IMG/VR virus record: IMGVR_UViG_3300040751_001100
Span: 1-31,086 of that record
Length of the DNA: 31,086 bases
Source: a virus
Strand: one strand, 5' to 3'
Part shown: piece by piece, positions 7,137-22,275 of the stretch
Position numbering within the stretch: the first letter of the stretch is position 1
Layout of the letters: the number at the start of each line of letters is the position of its first letter
Made by a program: the position numbers and the translations under genes
The notes under the pieces: model-generated
The model's database searches: none
What the model saw: only the letters and a program-made list of their open reading frames with translations
What the model was told of the DNA's origin: nothing

Positions 7137-7799
7137 TTATGTCAAATCAAGTGCTTGAGGGTAAATCTTTGAGATTGCCTCTGCGCATGCTTTTGCTATT
7201 TCAATATGCTCTTTCTGTGTGCCATTTGATGCACGGAGTTCAATGTAGTGAATCCAAGATCGGATTGTACCATTCATGTAAAGTCTGGATGTTGTGAGTC
7301 CCTCTGGTAACAATGCCCTTGCTTGCTCCTTTGCGATTCCTAACTTGATTGCTCGTTTGTATTCTCTTTCTGCCATCCACATGACTCGACCTTGAATACG
7401 ATACCACTCACGTTCAAGTTCAATGTCATCGACTTCGATAGAGTTCTGACGGTTCTTTTCGTCCTGTAAACGTGCTTCACGTCTGACAAACATCTCATCA
7501 AACTCTTGCTCTGGGTTTGCATACCGTTGCGAGAACTCTTGAAATGAGAACGAACGATGACGCAGAATCTGTCGTGCGATGTCTCGTGTTGTCTCAATCT
7601 CTAAGCAAGCAGATGCCATTTCAAAGGGGGACCAATGCTTGTGCTTTGCCAAGTATTGGAGTAACTTAGAAGAGGTCTCTGAATTGTTTTGATTCGATGG
7701 GTTAGATACCCTAGCACAAAACGCAACCATATCTTGAACATTATTTAATCCTTCAATCTCACCCGCAGGTTGACTATAACTTACTAATCTTACTTTCAA
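7137..7799 (-). CDS. thyX: Flavin-dependent thymidylate synthase
   Basis: 220 residues. The ThyX signature RHRxxSxxxxSxR is seen as RHRSFSFQEFSQR at residues 80-92, and the C-terminal RSWIHYIELR segment supplies dUMP-binding residues. It converts dUMP to dTMP with FAD, NADPH and methylene-tetrahydrofolate. Start choice: a TTG at 7799 overlaps the primase TGA as TTGA and has GGAG 6 bases upstream; a GTG at 7811 in frame is the alternative and would add four residues. Lying between the primase and nrdA it belongs to the nucleotide-supply operon. Confidence 0.94.
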   Translation of the reverse strand: MKVRLVSYSQPAGEIEGLNNVQDMVAFCARVSNPSNQNNSETSSKLLQYLAKHKHWSPFEMASACLEIETTRDIARQILRHRSFSFQEFSQRYANPEQEFDEMFVRREARLQDEKNRQNSIEVDDIELEREWYRIQGRVMWMAEREYKRAIKLGIAKEQARALLPEGLTTSRLYMNGTIRSWIHYIELRASNGTQKEHIEIAKACAEAISKIYPQALDLT

Positions 7800-8797
7800 A
7801 CCTTTCTCCACTCACTTAGTTTTGCTTTTGCCATCAATCCATTGAAGGTGTTATTACTTATAATCGCAGAGATTTCATTTACGTCTCTCCCTGCCATCAC
7901 CATGTCATTTATGTCTTTTTCTTCCACATAATCAGGCCATATCACTACTGACCTTCCGGAATCAATCGCACGTTCTAAACGTTTGATATTCTCCGCACTA
8001 CGAGGTTCGTTGTCCCAACAGTATACAGTATTCTCTGCTGTAAATCTAGCAGAATCGGAACCTGCCATTGCGATGGCATTGGGAATGAACATTGCATCAA
8101 TTGGTCCCTCAACAATCACTACTGACTTACTCCAATCTGCAGACTCTAATCCAAAGATCTTAGGTGCGTCTTCGTCCAACATAATCGTAATATACTTAGG
8201 TTGAGACTTACCGAACGCACGTCCTTGAAACCCAATGAGTTCTTCGTGTTCGTTGATGAACGGAATCACAAGTCTGGGTTCATCCTTCTGTATACTAGGA
8301 AACTTGTTTGGCACCATCGTGTTTACCCATCGATAAAACTTAGGTGCGTAAAATAATTTATAATGTTGAGATTTTGGAATACGTCTTTTTTCGACATATT
8401 TCCTTGCAGGATGATCAATTTTTAATTGAGATATTTTATGGATATCTTTTAATTGATTGGTCCACTTAGGTTTACGAATTTTACGAATGTCCACCTTTTT
8501 ATACTTAGGTTTCTCTTCACGTTTTCGATCACCGAACGTTTCCAACACATACTCTTTATGTAGGTGAGGGTTGACGTACTTAATTAAGTTTGATAGACTA
8601 GCACCTTGCGCACAATTATGGCACTTAAAGATATACTTGCCCTCACGTTGGAAGACGTATCCTCGTGCTTTGGTCTTATCTCTTTGGGAATCACCACAGT
8701 ATGGGCAACGGAAGTTCCATAAGTTGTCATTCTTACGTTTGAACTGACCCAGTTGTGCGGATATTAGGTTTAGGTATTTTGCATCAATATAACTCAT
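7796..8797 (-). CDS. 61: DNA primase, T4 gp61-like
   Basis: 333 residues. An N-terminal zinc finger (C31-PY-C34 and C59-HN-C62) is followed by a TOPRIM-type catalytic domain with VVIVEGPIDAMF (residues 226-237, E230 and D234), WDNE (261-264) and KDINDM (294-299). It synthesises RNA primers for lagging-strand replication, working with the gp41-type helicase encoded in block 1. The length matches T4 gp61. ATG at 8797 is preceded by a perfect sigma70-type promoter whose predicted start is the A of the ATG, so the mRNA may be leaderless. AGGTGA directly before the ATG is too close to act as a normal ribosome binding site. The stop overlaps the thyX start. Confidence 0.93.
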   Translation of the reverse strand: MSYIDAKYLNLISAQLGQFKRKNDNLWNFRCPYCGDSQRDKTKARGYVFQREGKYIFKCHNCAQGASLSNLIKYVNPHLHKEYVLETFGDRKREEKPKYKKVDIRKIRKPKWTNQLKDIHKISQLKIDHPARKYVEKRRIPKSQHYKLFYAPKFYRWVNTMVPNKFPSIQKDEPRLVIPFINEHEELIGFQGRAFGKSQPKYITIMLDEDAPKIFGLESADWSKSVVIVEGPIDAMFIPNAIAMAGSDSARFTAENTVYCWDNEPRSAENIKRLERAIDSGRSVVIWPDYVEEKDINDMVMAGRDVNEISAIISNNTFNGLMAKAKLSEWRKV

Positions 8798-8803
8798 TCA
8801 CCT

Positions 8804-8832
8804 ATTATATATGGGAATAAGTGATATGTCAA
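8804..8832 (-). promoter_or_regulatory. Perfect sigma70 consensus promoter before primase
   Basis: Reading the minus strand, TTGACA (8832-8827) and TATAAT (8809-8804) are separated by exactly 17 bases. Six bases separate the -10 box from the primase ATG, so the usual +1 falls on the A at 8797. The -35 box overlaps the stop codon of the upstream 111-residue gene. It probably drives the whole primase-thyX-nrdA-nrdB-glycan operon early in infection through host RNA polymerase. Confidence 0.85.
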
Positions 8833-17315: not shown

Positions 17316-19595
17316 TTACCAATTCTTACAAGACCAATAACGAGCTTTCCATTTTGGTCCGGGGTTATCGCAATTGTGACGTGCTCTAAATGCTTTTCTT
17401 CTTGCAGGGTCATCTCTCTTGATTTCCATGTTTGGATCTCCAAAAGAAACTTTTACCACATTGCCTTTGTCATTTTTGACATAGACATAAAACTTCTTCG
17501 ACCCACCACGGACAGGTTTGTTAAGTGTGACCTTTCTCTTTTGACCATCTGCTTCAAGAATAGTCACTTCTTCTTCAATGAGTTCTTCGTCACAATCATC
17601 ACAACAAGATTCCATCGGGGTGTCTTTCTTGTATTTGTTTTTGAGTTTATCAGTTCCCCACTCACCTGCACCACCTTCTTCTGCAACCATCTTTGCAAGG
17701 TCTCTCGCATCAACACCTTTGTATTGCTTTGCAATTTGTTGTGCATAGTATTCTACACTATGGTTGAGTTTACCTTCTTTCTTTTTGCGATCCAACACTT
17801 GACGCAAAACTTCTTTTGCATACTTGTAAGTGCGAGGTTTGATCAAGTATTTATTCATTAGTTTAGTGAACCAATCCTCATTAATTTGCTCGACCTCTTC
17901 ATTTTTTTCTTTTTTAGAGATTGCAATCGCTGCTTGTTGTTTTGCGTTTATTGCTTCTTTGGTTTCTGGCACACAATCAGGAACCATCTTGTCCCCTTTC
18001 TTCTTCATGCCGACTTGCTTATAACCGTCCCAACACTTTTCGTCGAGTTCAACAGATTCTTTCTTTACACCCTTTGCGAGGTCTTTATCTGCACCACCCC
18101 AAGTTCCTTTGCCCTTGGTGATGAATGAGTTGACTCGTGCAAATCCCCACTGCTGTTGTGTTGCACCGGGACGATGACCTGTCTTCCACGCAGCCATGCC
18201 ACGATCATAAACTTTCTTTAATGTGCCATATGGAATACCAGACTTTTCTGACTTCTTCATCAAAGATGCTTTCGCATCCTCTGTCAACTCGAACTCTTCA
18301 GTCTTGATATTTTTTGCACGAGTATCTTGTGTACGTGCACGATCTAACATGCGATCATGCTTTTCTTTATCTTGTTCTTTTTCTTTATTGATAGCATTAC
18401 GTGCGTTTTTTACGTTCTCTGCTTCTCCGTACATATCACGGTATTTGCGTGTGTGTTTGCTTGGTTTCGTTTTCGCATCAGCATCACCCGGTGCAGGTTT
18501 ATACGCCTTCGGATCATCATCCGATGCCTTCTTACCTGCCTTAAAGGACGCATCTCGTTTCTCCTTAGTGGATTTCGAAAGATCTTTAAAGTATTTCTTT
18601 GGTTGCGTACCTTCTCTATCCTTGATGGTAGAGTCCTGTGCGACCTTTGCTTCAAAGAGTGCGTTGATATCTAATTCTTCTGATTTCGTTGAACGTGCCA
18701 TTTTTAATCTTTCACCCTCGTCCTTTCTAACTTTAGGCAATAATTTCTTTGCTAGTTTTGAAATAACAGCAGATTTTTTCTGCACTAATTTATCAATAGT
18801 AATTTTTTCTGCAGTACTCAGGTCTCTATAATTTTTTCCACGATCACCTGCAACTTTTGCACGGACAACTTCTCGTGCTTTTTTCATTGCTCTCTTTTTT
18901 ATGGTATCACTATCTGCTCTGCGTTTTGCTTTAACTTTTCTCAATCTTGCAAGTTTTGGTGCAAGTCGTTTCATTCTTCTTCCAATGTCTCTACGTTGAG
19001 AAATCGACAATGGTTTGCGATCTTCTTCCATCTCTACCTCTTCTCTGATGGCATTATTAATAATGTCGTAAACCTTCTTTGCGTCACTCTGAATCTTAGG
19101 AGGCAGACCAGTTTTGAATGTGTCAAAGTCACCTGCCTTTGCAAGTGCTCTTAATTTAGATGCAGACATTCCTTCAACACCTTCTGCATCAGGATCTCTT
19201 TCACCTGCTGATACAACTTCAATTGAATCGAATGTATAATCTTTTCCGTTATACTTTGTAAGAAGTTTTTTAAATTCAGAAACTCGATCAGATCCGACAA
19301 CAAGGATTAAATCGGTATATCCACTCTTTTCAAGTTCTTGCGCAATTTGGATAATAGTTTTGCTTTGGGATACTTTGATGATCGATCCGAATGCTTTTGT
19401 TGCAAACTTGATTTTTTCTCTATAACTGAGTGGATCTTTTTTATTTTTAGGATCAGTTTGGACTGAGGTGTGTGACAGATACACTCTTGCGTCTGCCCGA
19501 TTTGATTTAGCAACGGTATTTACTTTGTCCACCAGTTTCTGGTGACCAATAGTCGGAGGGTTCATGCGTCCAAATGTGAACACGATTTTTTTCAT
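17316..19595 (-). CDS. Nucleotidyltransferase fused to multiple phage internal-protein-like modules
   Basis: 759 residues. Residues 1-180 are a cytidylyltransferase/NMN-adenylyltransferase-type enzyme: FTFGRMNPPTIGH (6-18) with the TxGH nucleotide motif, VVGSDR (99-104) and GMSASKLR (142-149). The rest is a chain of modules: a very basic one (about 193-302), KYFKDLSK...KYRDMYGEA (about 334-392), a GMAAWKTGHRPG module (about 441-512), CWDGYKQVGMKKKGDKMVPDC (521-541), a helical module (574-637), and a C-terminal KFYVYVKNDKGN...WSCKNW module (about 685-759). Linkers have (L/I)-x-E sites: LFEA 313-316, LTED 437-440, LDEK 517-520, INED 571-574, ILEA 679-682. Start at ATG 19595 has AAGGA 7 bases upstream. 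The enzyme may be packaged with the modules; the reaction substrate is unknown. Confidence 0.75.
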   Translation of the reverse strand: MKKIVFTFGRMNPPTIGHQKLVDKVNTVAKSNRADARVYLSHTSVQTDPKNKKDPLSYREKIKFATKAFGSIIKVSQSKTIIQIAQELEKSGYTDLILVVGSDRVSEFKKLLTKYNGKDYTFDSIEVVSAGERDPDAEGVEGMSASKLRALAKAGDFDTFKTGLPPKIQSDAKKVYDIINNAIREEVEMEEDRKPLSISQRRDIGRRMKRLAPKLARLRKVKAKRRADSDTIKKRAMKKAREVVRAKVAGDRGKNYRDLSTAEKITIDKLVQKKSAVISKLAKKLLPKVRKDEGERLKMARSTKSEELDINALFEAKVAQDSTIKDREGTQPKKYFKDLSKSTKEKRDASFKAGKKASDDDPKAYKPAPGDADAKTKPSKHTRKYRDMYGEAENVKNARNAINKEKEQDKEKHDRMLDRARTQDTRAKNIKTEEFELTEDAKASLMKKSEKSGIPYGTLKKVYDRGMAAWKTGHRPGATQQQWGFARVNSFITKGKGTWGGADKDLAKGVKKESVELDEKCWDGYKQVGMKKKGDKMVPDCVPETKEAINAKQQAAIAISKKEKNEEVEQINEDWFTKLMNKYLIKPRTYKYAKEVLRQVLDRKKKEGKLNHSVEYYAQQIAKQYKGVDARDLAKMVAEEGGAGEWGTDKLKNKYKKDTPMESCCDDCDEELIEEEVTILEADGQKRKVTLNKPVRGGSKKFYVYVKNDKGNVVKVSFGDPNMEIKRDDPARRKAFRARHNCDNPGPKWKARYWSCKNW

Positions 19596-19618
19596 AGGGT
19601 TTTCCTTAGACTTACCTA

Positions 19619-19647
19619 TTGACAATACTTTATAAGTTATGTATAAT
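19619..19647 (+). promoter_or_regulatory. Perfect sigma70 consensus promoter on the plus strand (antisense)
   Basis: On the plus strand TTGACA (19619-19624) and TATAAT (19642-19647) are exactly 17 bases apart in the gap between the 759-residue gene and the 92-residue gene. Predicted +1 is near 19654. No plus-strand gene follows; the transcript would run antisense through the 92-residue gene and into the fibre gene, and it faces the late promoter at 19670-19677. Confidence 0.6.
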
Positions 19648-19669
19648 CAATCTGTGATGTTTCTGATAC

Positions 19670-19677
19670 TATTTATA
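19670..19677 (-). promoter_or_regulatory. Late promoter TATAAATA
   Basis: The minus strand reads TATAAATAG, identical to the T4 late promoter element. It lies 75 bases before the ATG of the 759-residue modular gene and after the 92-residue gene, so it would start the unit 19595-14779. Confidence 0.75.
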
Positions 19678-19692
19678 CAATTATGATATCTA

Positions 19693-19971
19693 TTATTCCA
19701 TATTTTCAGGAGGTGTATTTGCCATAATGAATAATGTTTCAGGATCTATATATTCTTCATTAAGTGTAAAATTTTGTCCATCATAGAAATATTTATTGAC
19801 AGCAAAGTCTTCTGGAGGAGTGACATCATCATAAATTGTAGAATTATCAATTGTCATATCTAAAATGTTTTGCTCGTCTGTTGTTGTAGATGTATCTGTT
19901 TGAGTTACAGTGTAACCATTATCCCAAATAAATTTACATAAATTTGTTTCATTTTCAACTAAAATTTTCAT
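19693..19971 (-). CDS. Small fibre-associated hypothetical protein
   Basis: 92 residues, acidic, no membrane segment. It starts MKILVENETNLCKFIWDNGYTV and has KYFYDGQNFTLNEEYIDP near 60-77, a pattern like the short proteins that follow fibre genes in marine T4-like phages. Its ATG directly abuts the fibre stop (TAAATG), so it is almost certainly co-translated with the fibre. A fibre assembly or chaperone function is a guess from position. An antisense promoter points into it from its 3' side. Confidence 0.6.
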   Translation of the reverse strand: MKILVENETNLCKFIWDNGYTVTQTDTSTTTDEQNILDMTIDNSTIYDDVTPPEDFAVNKYFYDGQNFTLNEEYIDPETLFIMANTPPENME

Positions 19972-22242
19972 TTAAACTCCTGTCAAAATCATAGTGTTTG
20001 CACTAACTGCTTTTCCAATTTTTAAAGATGCTACATTGTAAGTTGCATCTATTGTTCCATTAGCATGTACGTAATAGTCCGATGATGGACTTAGACTAGA
20101 AAACGCACTTGACACGGATCCTCTTGGTGTAACTGTTACAGTTGCTCCATTTGCCGCACTACTTTCTGCAACACCGATAACCAAATTAGCATCAAAATTA
20201 GTAGATCTAGTATCTGCTTCTAAACTAAAAATATTAATTCCTCTGGCATAATTGTTATTGCTATCATACCCATTAATGGCATATCTATTATTTCCTAGGT
20301 AAGCTCCAATCGTAGCAAATCCAAATCCAGCAACACCTGTTATTCCTATTCGATTTTCGGTGTTTGCGACATATGGTGCTGTAGTCTTATCAAGTTCGAT
20401 ATCAAATCTTGAAAGTCCACCATTAACGGCATCAGTATATATCATAGTTCCAGTATTAATTGTATACGGACTCATATATAATTGACTATAACCCGCTCTG
20501 ATCGTGGTTCCATAACTTCTTGCGTAAGTGACATCCCACTGAGTTACTGGGAGAGTGGTACTATTTAATTTTGCTATTCCTTGATACAAAACATCATTTG
20601 TATAAGAAGCATATGAAGTAAAAGTGAAATGACAAATCTCTGGATGAAATGGATCCCAAGTAAGATAAGGGTTTGCCATATACTTATTATCTTGTTGAGG
20701 ACCAACAACACCAGCGTTCATTAATGTTACTCCACCAGCTCCATTCATGCGTCCGGGTCTTATCCACATATCTGACTTTCGATAACTTCCGTTATTCCTA
20801 AACCCTAGTGCAAATACACTTTCACCTTGATTGTCTACAGTCCACAGTGGACTAAATGCCACAGGATAGTAATAGTGAGGTCCAGAAGTATCAACATAGT
20901 TCTGTGTCAGTGCACTGACCGTGTTCGTAGTAAAATCAAATTTTCCTGATACAAGTATAAGATTGGTTCCTGCTTGGAACATCCATATAAAACCATCTCG
21001 ATCACTTAAATCAAAATGATTTCCTTGGAGTGCAACCCATGGAAAATAAGTTTGTGAATACAAAACAACTTCATTAGAATAATTGACAAGATTATCTGAA
21101 CCAATAGTCACTTGTCTTAGACAAGGATAACCACTAGCATTACTATAAAAAAGTAATATTTTGCTTGGATCAGTTTTCGAACGTTTTGCGGCTATACTGC
21201 CGTGTGTTCCTGTAGTACCTCGTGCGGCAGTGAACGTAAAGGTTCCATCTGATGCAAGTGTACATGACGTACCTTGAAGCTTTCTCTGGGTACCAGAATT
21301 GTCATCCCAAAATATATAAAATTTACTTGGATCACTTGGATCAGGAACTATTTCGCCAGCATAGTAAGCATTAACGTTAGTTGATCCGGGGCTGCTGTGG
21401 AAGTTTTGAATGAAACTAGTAGATCCATATGGATAATCAAATTCTTCAACTCCTCCAGAACCTATAATTGGATATACTGCACCATTAGTAGCAATTTGAA
21501 CTGCATCTCCTAATGAAAATACTCCATTAGCAGTAAACTCTAGAGTTGTTCCACCTCCACCACTTGATTCTGCAACGGTTGCAATATATGCATTGGTATT
21601 TGCAACAAACGATTGGAAATCGGTGTTGGTAGTGTATGTGCTTGTTAAATATGCATTAGATGCCTTTGTGCCGATGAGAGCAGTAGTTGTCGTAGCAAAG
21701 TTAGCATCATCTCCTAATGCTGATGCCAGTTCGTCTAATGTGTTTAAAGTTGTAGGAGCACTATTAACCAATGACGCAACTGATGTGTCCACATAAGATT
21801 CAGTTGCAAATCCGTAACTAGAAACGTTGGCAACTTGTAAGTACTGGCTCTGTGCATCTGATACACTAGCAACATAAGCATTAGTATTTGCAAGAACTGT
21901 TTGAAGTTCTGCATTAGAGATTCCCGGGTGTGAACCAATTTTAGTTCCTGCAGGAAGTGCAATAGTACCACTTTCAGTTGAAGTGATTGATGCAGAACCT
22001 AATACTAATGTATTACCTGACAAATATAGATCTTTGAATGCTTTATCTGCAGTACCTAAATCATAGGTAACATTTGCAGAGGGAACTAAATTTTGGTCAA
22101 TTGCGTCTGCAGATACACCATCAATAGTTGTAGTTGCAACCACCGACCATTTATTCTTTGTAGAGTTGTACTGATAAGTCAACCCATCGTATGAGTAAGT
22201 ATCACCGTTTGAGGGACTTGAAGGAAATGAAATACTTGCCAT
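19972..22242 (-). CDS. Tail fibre-like protein
   Basis: 756 residues. N-terminus SPSNGDTYSYDGLTYQYNSTKNKWSVV-type is the short beta unit seen at the start of many phage fibres. Residues about 110-230 contain repeats such as ANTNAYVASV / ANTNAYIATV and the widespread fibre motif SAPTTLNTLDELASALGDD. The C-terminal two thirds (about 250-700) is beta-rich with DPSDPSKFYIFWDD, KTDPSKILLFYS and DPFHPEICHFTF at intervals, suggesting a beta-propeller-like receptor-binding head. The last 50 residues are VTVTPRGSVSSAF-like. AGGAT lies 5 bases before the ATG and a TATAAATA motif lies 26 bases upstream. Propeller assignment is inference. Confidence 0.75.
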   Translation of the reverse strand: MASISFPSSPSNGDTYSYDGLTYQYNSTKNKWSVVATTTIDGVSADAIDQNLVPSANVTYDLGTADKAFKDLYLSGNTLVLGSASITSTESGTIALPAGTKIGSHPGISNAELQTVLANTNAYVASVSDAQSQYLQVANVSSYGFATESYVDTSVASLVNSAPTTLNTLDELASALGDDANFATTTTALIGTKASNAYLTSTYTTNTDFQSFVANTNAYIATVAESSGGGGTTLEFTANGVFSLGDAVQIATNGAVYPIIGSGGVEEFDYPYGSTSFIQNFHSSPGSTNVNAYYAGEIVPDPSDPSKFYIFWDDNSGTQRKLQGTSCTLASDGTFTFTAARGTTGTHGSIAAKRSKTDPSKILLFYSNASGYPCLRQVTIGSDNLVNYSNEVVLYSQTYFPWVALQGNHFDLSDRDGFIWMFQAGTNLILVSGKFDFTTNTVSALTQNYVDTSGPHYYYPVAFSPLWTVDNQGESVFALGFRNNGSYRKSDMWIRPGRMNGAGGVTLMNAGVVGPQQDNKYMANPYLTWDPFHPEICHFTFTSYASYTNDVLYQGIAKLNSTTLPVTQWDVTYARSYGTTIRAGYSQLYMSPYTINTGTMIYTDAVNGGLSRFDIELDKTTAPYVANTENRIGITGVAGFGFATIGAYLGNNRYAINGYDSNNNYARGINIFSLEADTRSTNFDANLVIGVAESSAANGATVTVTPRGSVSSAFSSLSPSSDYYVHANGTIDATYNVASLKIGKAVSANTMILTGV

Positions 22243-22267
22243 GATGCATCCTGAGAATTATTTCTTC

Positions 22268-22275
22268 TATTTATA
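22268..22275 (-). promoter_or_regulatory. Late promoter TATAAATA
   Basis: The minus strand reads TATAAATAG, identical to the T4 late element, in the 35-base gap before the tail fibre gene. It would start the fibre and 92-residue gene unit. Confidence 0.75.

Follow-up and report, generated by a model that had tools for sequence, protein, structure and literature searches.

Why should a phage that encodes essentially all its genes on one strand carry a perfect promoter of the host type on the other? The question is raised by a viral contig of 31,086 bases from a marine relative of phage T4 (IMG/VR record IMGVR_UViG_3300040751_001100, positions 1 to 31,086; this whole stretch is referred to below as the window), in which all long genes lie on the minus strand and the sequence TTGACA-17-TATAAT, a 12-of-12 match to the sigma70 consensus, occupies positions 19619 to 19647 of the plus strand, in the leader of a cytidyltransferase gene. 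When an early promoter of a lytic phage points antisense, it is easy to put it down to chance or noise. Judged from sequence comparison, this one belongs to a class (antisense TTGAC-16/17-TATAAT followed, at the start site and within a short dyad, by TGTNG) that selection has maintained at three places in related phages. Because it is so maintained, with a start-site signature of its own, the class can be considered a genuine control element; it may act as a timing switch or prime DNA replication. No earlier description of such an antisense class was found in the open-licence papers searched.

The antisense promoter and the late promoter facing it

The locus consists of the following elements:
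19619-19624, plus strand: -35 box TTGACA, of which TTGAC is kept in relatives
19642-19647, plus strand: -10 box TATAAT, set off from the -35 box by 17 bases; its columns do not vary in alignment A1
19650-19658, plus strand: short dyad ATC-TGT-GAT at the predicted start, which reads TGTGA and is a weaker instance of the class N5-TGTNG
19670-19677, minus strand: T4-type late promoter TATAAATA of the cytidyltransferase gene, facing the antisense promoter
17316-19595, minus strand: cytidyltransferase gene (phrog_3041, 7e-89; ATG at 19595), whose leader contains the promoter

Under a first-order Markov model of both window strands, 0.014 exact matches are expected at spacing 17 and ∼0.04 at spacings 16 to 18; the window has two at spacing 17. 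The other one, at 8804 to 8832 of the minus strand, is a sense site directly upstream of the primase gene (7796 to 8797). The TTGACA and TATAAT hexamers, their spacing of 17 (16 to 18 being allowed), and the retention of both in relatives mark the antisense site as a predicted host-sigma70 (early) promoter; that a sigma70-type promoter would be used here is an assumption drawn from the hexamers. The predicted start, a G at 19654 of the plus strand, agrees with that proposed in the first-pass annotation, which had also recognized the exact consensus opposite the minus-strand genes and the late promoter facing it. The “intergenic gap” in which it placed the promoter is better described as the stretch of 5′ leader that separates the late promoter from the cytidyltransferase ATG.

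TATAAT and TATTTATA are separated by 22 bases. Intergenic copies of TATAAATA, counted in the window plus five related records, number 54 in the sense orientation and 2 in the antisense orientation, a strand bias that identifies it as a real late promoter motif. Here it stands on the coding strand, close upstream of the gene, in the manner of T4-like late promoters.

Conservation in the leaders of two unrelated genes

The cytidyltransferase leaders of 30 relatives were compared with that of the window. When no more than one mismatch is allowed, 9 of these 31 leaders (L004, L005, L006, L007, L009, L010, L011, L021, and the window) have an antisense sigma70 site, compared to a mean of 0.12 after shuffling; sense sites number zero. 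In the alignment of the nine, the invariant columns (in sense orientation) include most of TATAAATA, ACA, all of ATTATA, and the G and AA of GTCAA, so both boxes are kept in close relatives, a check that had been set when the site was first noticed. The spacer is variable, and the neighboring genes differ too. The distance to the late promoter is nearly fixed, at 22 to 23 bases in most cytidyltransferase leaders and 29 to 30 bases in two.

The second place is the leader of a short gene for a histone-H1-like protein. Protein similarity alone was used to collect 66 distinct leaders of this gene; with one mismatch tolerated, 35 have an antisense sigma70 site (0.25 expected from shuffled sequences) and none has a sense site. 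Aligned on the -10 box, the start region has the same consensus in the H1-like and the cytidyltransferase leaders, the genes themselves being unrelated. In the record G001, the H1-like gene comes just after the gp5 and PAAR genes and before gp25 and gp6 (all four names are our own reading of the sequences), and its element reads back into the putative gp5. The 57-residue H1-like protein, with its GNKTAGTRARKALAEI core (L354-L433), is very common in viral contigs, with at least 588 relatives, and has no match in PHROGs.

The cytidyltransferase leaders also contain a hairpin at the ribosome site, ATAGG-TAAGTCTAAGGAAAAC-CCTAT (19594 to 19619 of the minus strand), which overlaps the first base of the -35 box on the opposite strand. 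In 19 distinct leaders, it has a fixed 16-base loop, TAAGTCYAMGGAAAAC, with the Shine-Dalgarno sequence, and stems of 3 to 6 pairs that covary strongly (score of 0.99 versus 0.27 in shuffled controls; 0 of 500). This hairpin has no Rfam match and looks like an undescribed translational control element. In L029, L030, and other relatives, the late promoter and the hairpin are present and the antisense promoter is absent, so the presence of the latter varies from lineage to lineage.

Selection inside uvsW

The third place lies ∼190 codons into a gene that, from our own reading of its sequence, is predicted to be uvsW; for the codon test, sequences were picked by peptide, not by DNA. In 17 uvsW sequences, two Tyr/Asp codons always end in T, so that a Tyr-to-Asp change retains ATTATA, CAA is the only codon used for the Gln of the -35 box, GGT encodes the Gly in 16 of the sequences, and the codon preceding the first Gln always ends in A despite encoding six different residues. 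In 15 aligned uvsW proteins, the codon is invariant for 4 of the 160 invariant residues, and two of these four are the -10 and -35 codons; the spacer codons nearby vary freely. As read from codon usage, this is selection on the DNA or RNA sequence and is independent of the window. Simple promoter counts in the 63 uvsW loci (L274-L353) are not used as evidence: a sense sigma70-like site (at most one mismatch) occurs in 31 and an antisense one in 27.

The start-site signature and its dyad

A tight pattern (the late octamer, ACA five bases before ATTATA, then GTCAA) yielded 27 matches in viral contigs and a single match when the spacing was broken to eight bases as a control; contigs are fragments, and kinship among sequences inflates such counts. 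The matches precede the cytidyltransferase gene, the short H1-like gene, and a tail-tube-like gene. This pattern and its control replaced a broad scan for the module with a free gap, whose listed matches were mostly due to chance. Module sets selected by their hexamers are unfit to measure hexamer conservation, a selection that the leader counts and the uvsW codon test avoid.

In the long records, TGTNG five bases after TATAAT is found at most antisense sigma70 sites and, among sense sites, only in a few loose matches; at no more than one mismatch, the signature is present at 13 antisense sites and no sense sites. A search of 43 records with the strict pattern identified 21 sites in 17 records, antisense wherever their orientation was traced. 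Three loci hold the class: the cytidyltransferase leader, the H1-like leader, and the interior of uvsW. The antisense coding sites at 77311 in G001 and 58506 in G002 have no TGTNG and are not counted in it. In G001 (L231-L237), a 133-kb record, the class sites at sense coordinates 23964, 68212, and 110328 are ∼44 and ∼42 kb apart; the spacing is 33 to 60 kb in other records, so even spacing is not general.

The arms that flank the ACA/TGT core are complementary, with 72 pairs at 25 sites compared to 39 ± 5 in arm-swapped controls. At 60 sites, the covariation of the arms has a z value of 9.6 versus arm swaps, which, as the sequences are related, is not a strict probability. The two arms change jointly, as in AAAAC/GTTTT, AGAAC/GTTCT, and AAGAC/GTCTT.

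Absence of a conserved product

In the window, no plus-strand open reading frame (ORF) of at least 25 residues with a Shine-Dalgarno sequence is found in the first 350 bases downstream of the start, and no terminator is found in the first 600, so the predicted RNA would be antisense and noncoding, as originally proposed. In the relatives, there is no conserved ORF, and terminators are sporadic, weak, and limited to a few; searches of Rfam gave no match, either at the gathering score or at E values of up to 1. Sequence conservation stops ∼20 bases past the start, which, with the lack of a conserved ORF or terminator, fits the act of transcription rather than its product. Since the promoter, its direction, and the start region are conserved and the product is not, the function is probably local, and these sequences suggest that it is cis-acting.

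The genes traversed differ among loci and lineages. In the window, they are as follows:
19693-19971, minus strand: 92-residue gene without an assigned function, to which the predicted RNA would be antisense; it belongs to an apparent insertion
19972-22242, minus strand: tail fiber gene, which the predicted antisense RNA would reach later; it belongs to the same apparent insertion

Searches with the 92-residue protein found no relatives. In relatives such as G001, a phrog_455 gene adjoins the cytidyltransferase gene, and the fiber and 92-residue genes are absent; the pair looks like an insertion between these two genes that is special to the window. It has a late promoter of its own at 22268 to 22275 (the whole unit spans 19693 to 22275 of the minus strand). 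The first-pass annotation had aimed the role of the promoter at the tail fiber, but the promoter is kept in relatives that have neither the fiber nor the 92-residue gene, so delay of the fiber is not its general purpose.

Other genes of the window and its nearest relatives

The window also encodes a UvsX-like recombinase, a DnaB-like helicase, thymidylate synthase, and both subunits of ribonucleotide reductase, in addition to the cytidyltransferase, primase, and tail fiber already mentioned. The nearest cultured relatives of its cytidyltransferase, at ∼50% identity, are from Pelagibacter phage HTVC008M and the Methylophilales Melnitz phages, which are T4-like phages placed in the Kyanoviridae. 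As a nucleotide query against the phage collection, the region gave no match; the window phage is only distantly related to cultured phages.

Possible functions of the class

The first choice, held tentatively and with rather less than even confidence, is early transcriptional interference that is lifted at the late switch from host sigma70 to the late sigma factor. Early in infection, the host RNA polymerase would initiate at the antisense promoter, and the engaged or head-on polymerase would block sense transcription in cis, namely, read-through from upstream early promoters and, at the cytidyltransferase site, the overlapping late promoter. Upon replacement of sigma70 by the late sigma factor (gp55), the antisense promoter would fall silent and the late promoter would be freed. 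The covarying dyad over the start site could stabilize a polymerase held at the promoter. Transcription from these sites, its timing, the interference, and the role of the dyad are what we infer from the sequences. Early silencing of uvsW would make sense, because UvsW is made late in T4, where it unwinds the R-loops of origins (PMC3016281).

Several observations weigh against interference of this kind. The uvsW site has no adjacent late promoter, and the distance to the late promoter at the H1-like gene ranges from ∼9 to 78 bases, so occlusion of a late promoter cannot be the whole story; pairing with a late promoter, absent in uvsW, is not a defining feature of the class. In these phages, a late promoter usually stands without an antisense partner. 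The dyad of the window itself is weak, with three pairs and TGTGA instead of TGTNG. Finally, in the search of 43 records, the strict class was absent from the long relative G011 and from the cultured phages HTVC008M and Melnitz-3.

The close rival, a serious possibility that is nonetheless given less credence, is that these promoters serve R-loop replication origins, at which an untranslated early antisense RNA stays hybridized and primes leading-strand synthesis, like that of T4 oriE. In the T4 record, the oriE primer RNA is complementary to the gene 5 transcript, and an antisense sigma70-like site, TTGATG-17-TATAAT, is found at the oriE position; T4 oriE is said to depend on an early-mode promoter, and the R-loops of T4 origins are unwound by UvsW (PMC3016281). 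The window site likewise combines a predicted early-mode promoter, an RNA that would be complementary to a late transcript, and the orientation seen in the T4 record. In G001, the H1-like element, directed back into the putative gp5, is located near where T4 has oriE, and the uvsW element adjoins uvsY, the site of oriF in T4. The untranslated nature of the predicted RNA, the small number of sites per genome, and the lack of conservation downstream also fit. However, the class is missing from related phages, T4 oriE itself has no TGTNG dyad, the T4 oriF RNA is the sense uvsY transcript, and the gene 5 region is approached by the H1-like members only, the window site being at the cytidyltransferase gene, which has no counterpart among T4 origins. 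GC skew at third or fourfold codon positions revealed no consistent origin signature at the class sites; not all T4 origins show such a shift in strand composition (PMC3016281). The more specific proposal, that TTGAC-17-TATAAT-N5-TGTNG with its dyad marks a set of R-loop origins, several per genome, in marine T4-like phages, is a credible possibility but less likely than not; no local motif is said to be common to the origins of T4 (PMC3016281). Interference and replication priming can both be true together.

A regulatory RNA that pairs with the late mRNA or acts in trans is improbable. Antisense RNAs do exist in marine T4-like phages, as a passage in PMC2984593 describes for CfrI of cyanophage S-PM2. 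However, the RNA predicted here would start upstream of the ribosome sites of the cytidyltransferase and H1-like genes and run away from both, and the sequence downstream varies among relatives, with no conserved terminator or RNA family match.

Slightly less probable still is that the dyad was selected as RNA, forming a hairpin close to where the sense late mRNA begins, the antisense promoter being separate or secondary. Overall, the stems gain more pairs by allowing G-T on the sense strand than by allowing A-C (206 versus 190), sense-type wobble pairs being ahead in the H1-like and uvsW sites, and in several leaders the late start is predicted a few bases before the dyad. In the cytidyltransferase group, however, the order is reversed (39 G-T versus 52 A-C), and a spacing of 4 to 5 bases between the dyad and the antisense -10 box is retained in uvsW as well as at changed distances to the late promoter. 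As for a chance match without function, AT-rich DNA often yields promoter-like sites, and loose 9-of-12 sites are at chance level in the window, but the exact match is improbable and is kept in diverged leaders and at silent codon positions, a conservation that already contradicts this reading and makes it scarcely credible.

A single class is thus selected at three unrelated loci, including silent coding positions, and its signature is missing from strong sense promoters. If early interference is its role, such an early-off/late-on device would show how phages without the T4 middle-promoter system might order single-strand gene arrays; if it primes replication, it would provide a sequence mark by which the replication origins of marine T4-like phages could be searched for.

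Comparison with known systems

T4 oriE (AF158101; Kreuzer and Brister 2010, PMC3016281) resembles the class in having an early sigma70-type promoter antisense to a late gene and an RNA that complements a late transcript, and the H1-like member of the class is near gp5 and reads into it. It differs in that T4 has no TGTNG dyad and encodes RepEA and RepEB on that strand; for the class, origin activity would be a prediction, and its cytidyltransferase site is not at a T4 origin. The late promoters of the window and of T4 share the same octamer, TATAAATA, oriented with the gene and close upstream of start codons; unlike the cytidyltransferase leader, most leaders with T4-type late promoters have no antisense sigma70 site.

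CfrI of cyanophage S-PM2 (Millard et al. 2010, as cited in a passage of PMC2984593) is likewise a case of antisense transcription in a marine T4-like phage, described there as a discrete RNA of ∼225 nucleotides over psbA and a homing endonuclease gene. The class analyzed here, in contrast, recurs at three loci without a conserved discrete product, and the window copy has no terminator that would define a transcript of the CfrI type.

Temperate phages such as 186 and P2 have face-to-face promoter pairs, which can interfere in cis. The promoters are similarly opposed in the window, but the two would use different sigma factors, host sigma70 and a late gp55-type factor, and the proposed outcome would be a one-way change from early to late expression rather than a lysis-lysogeny switch.
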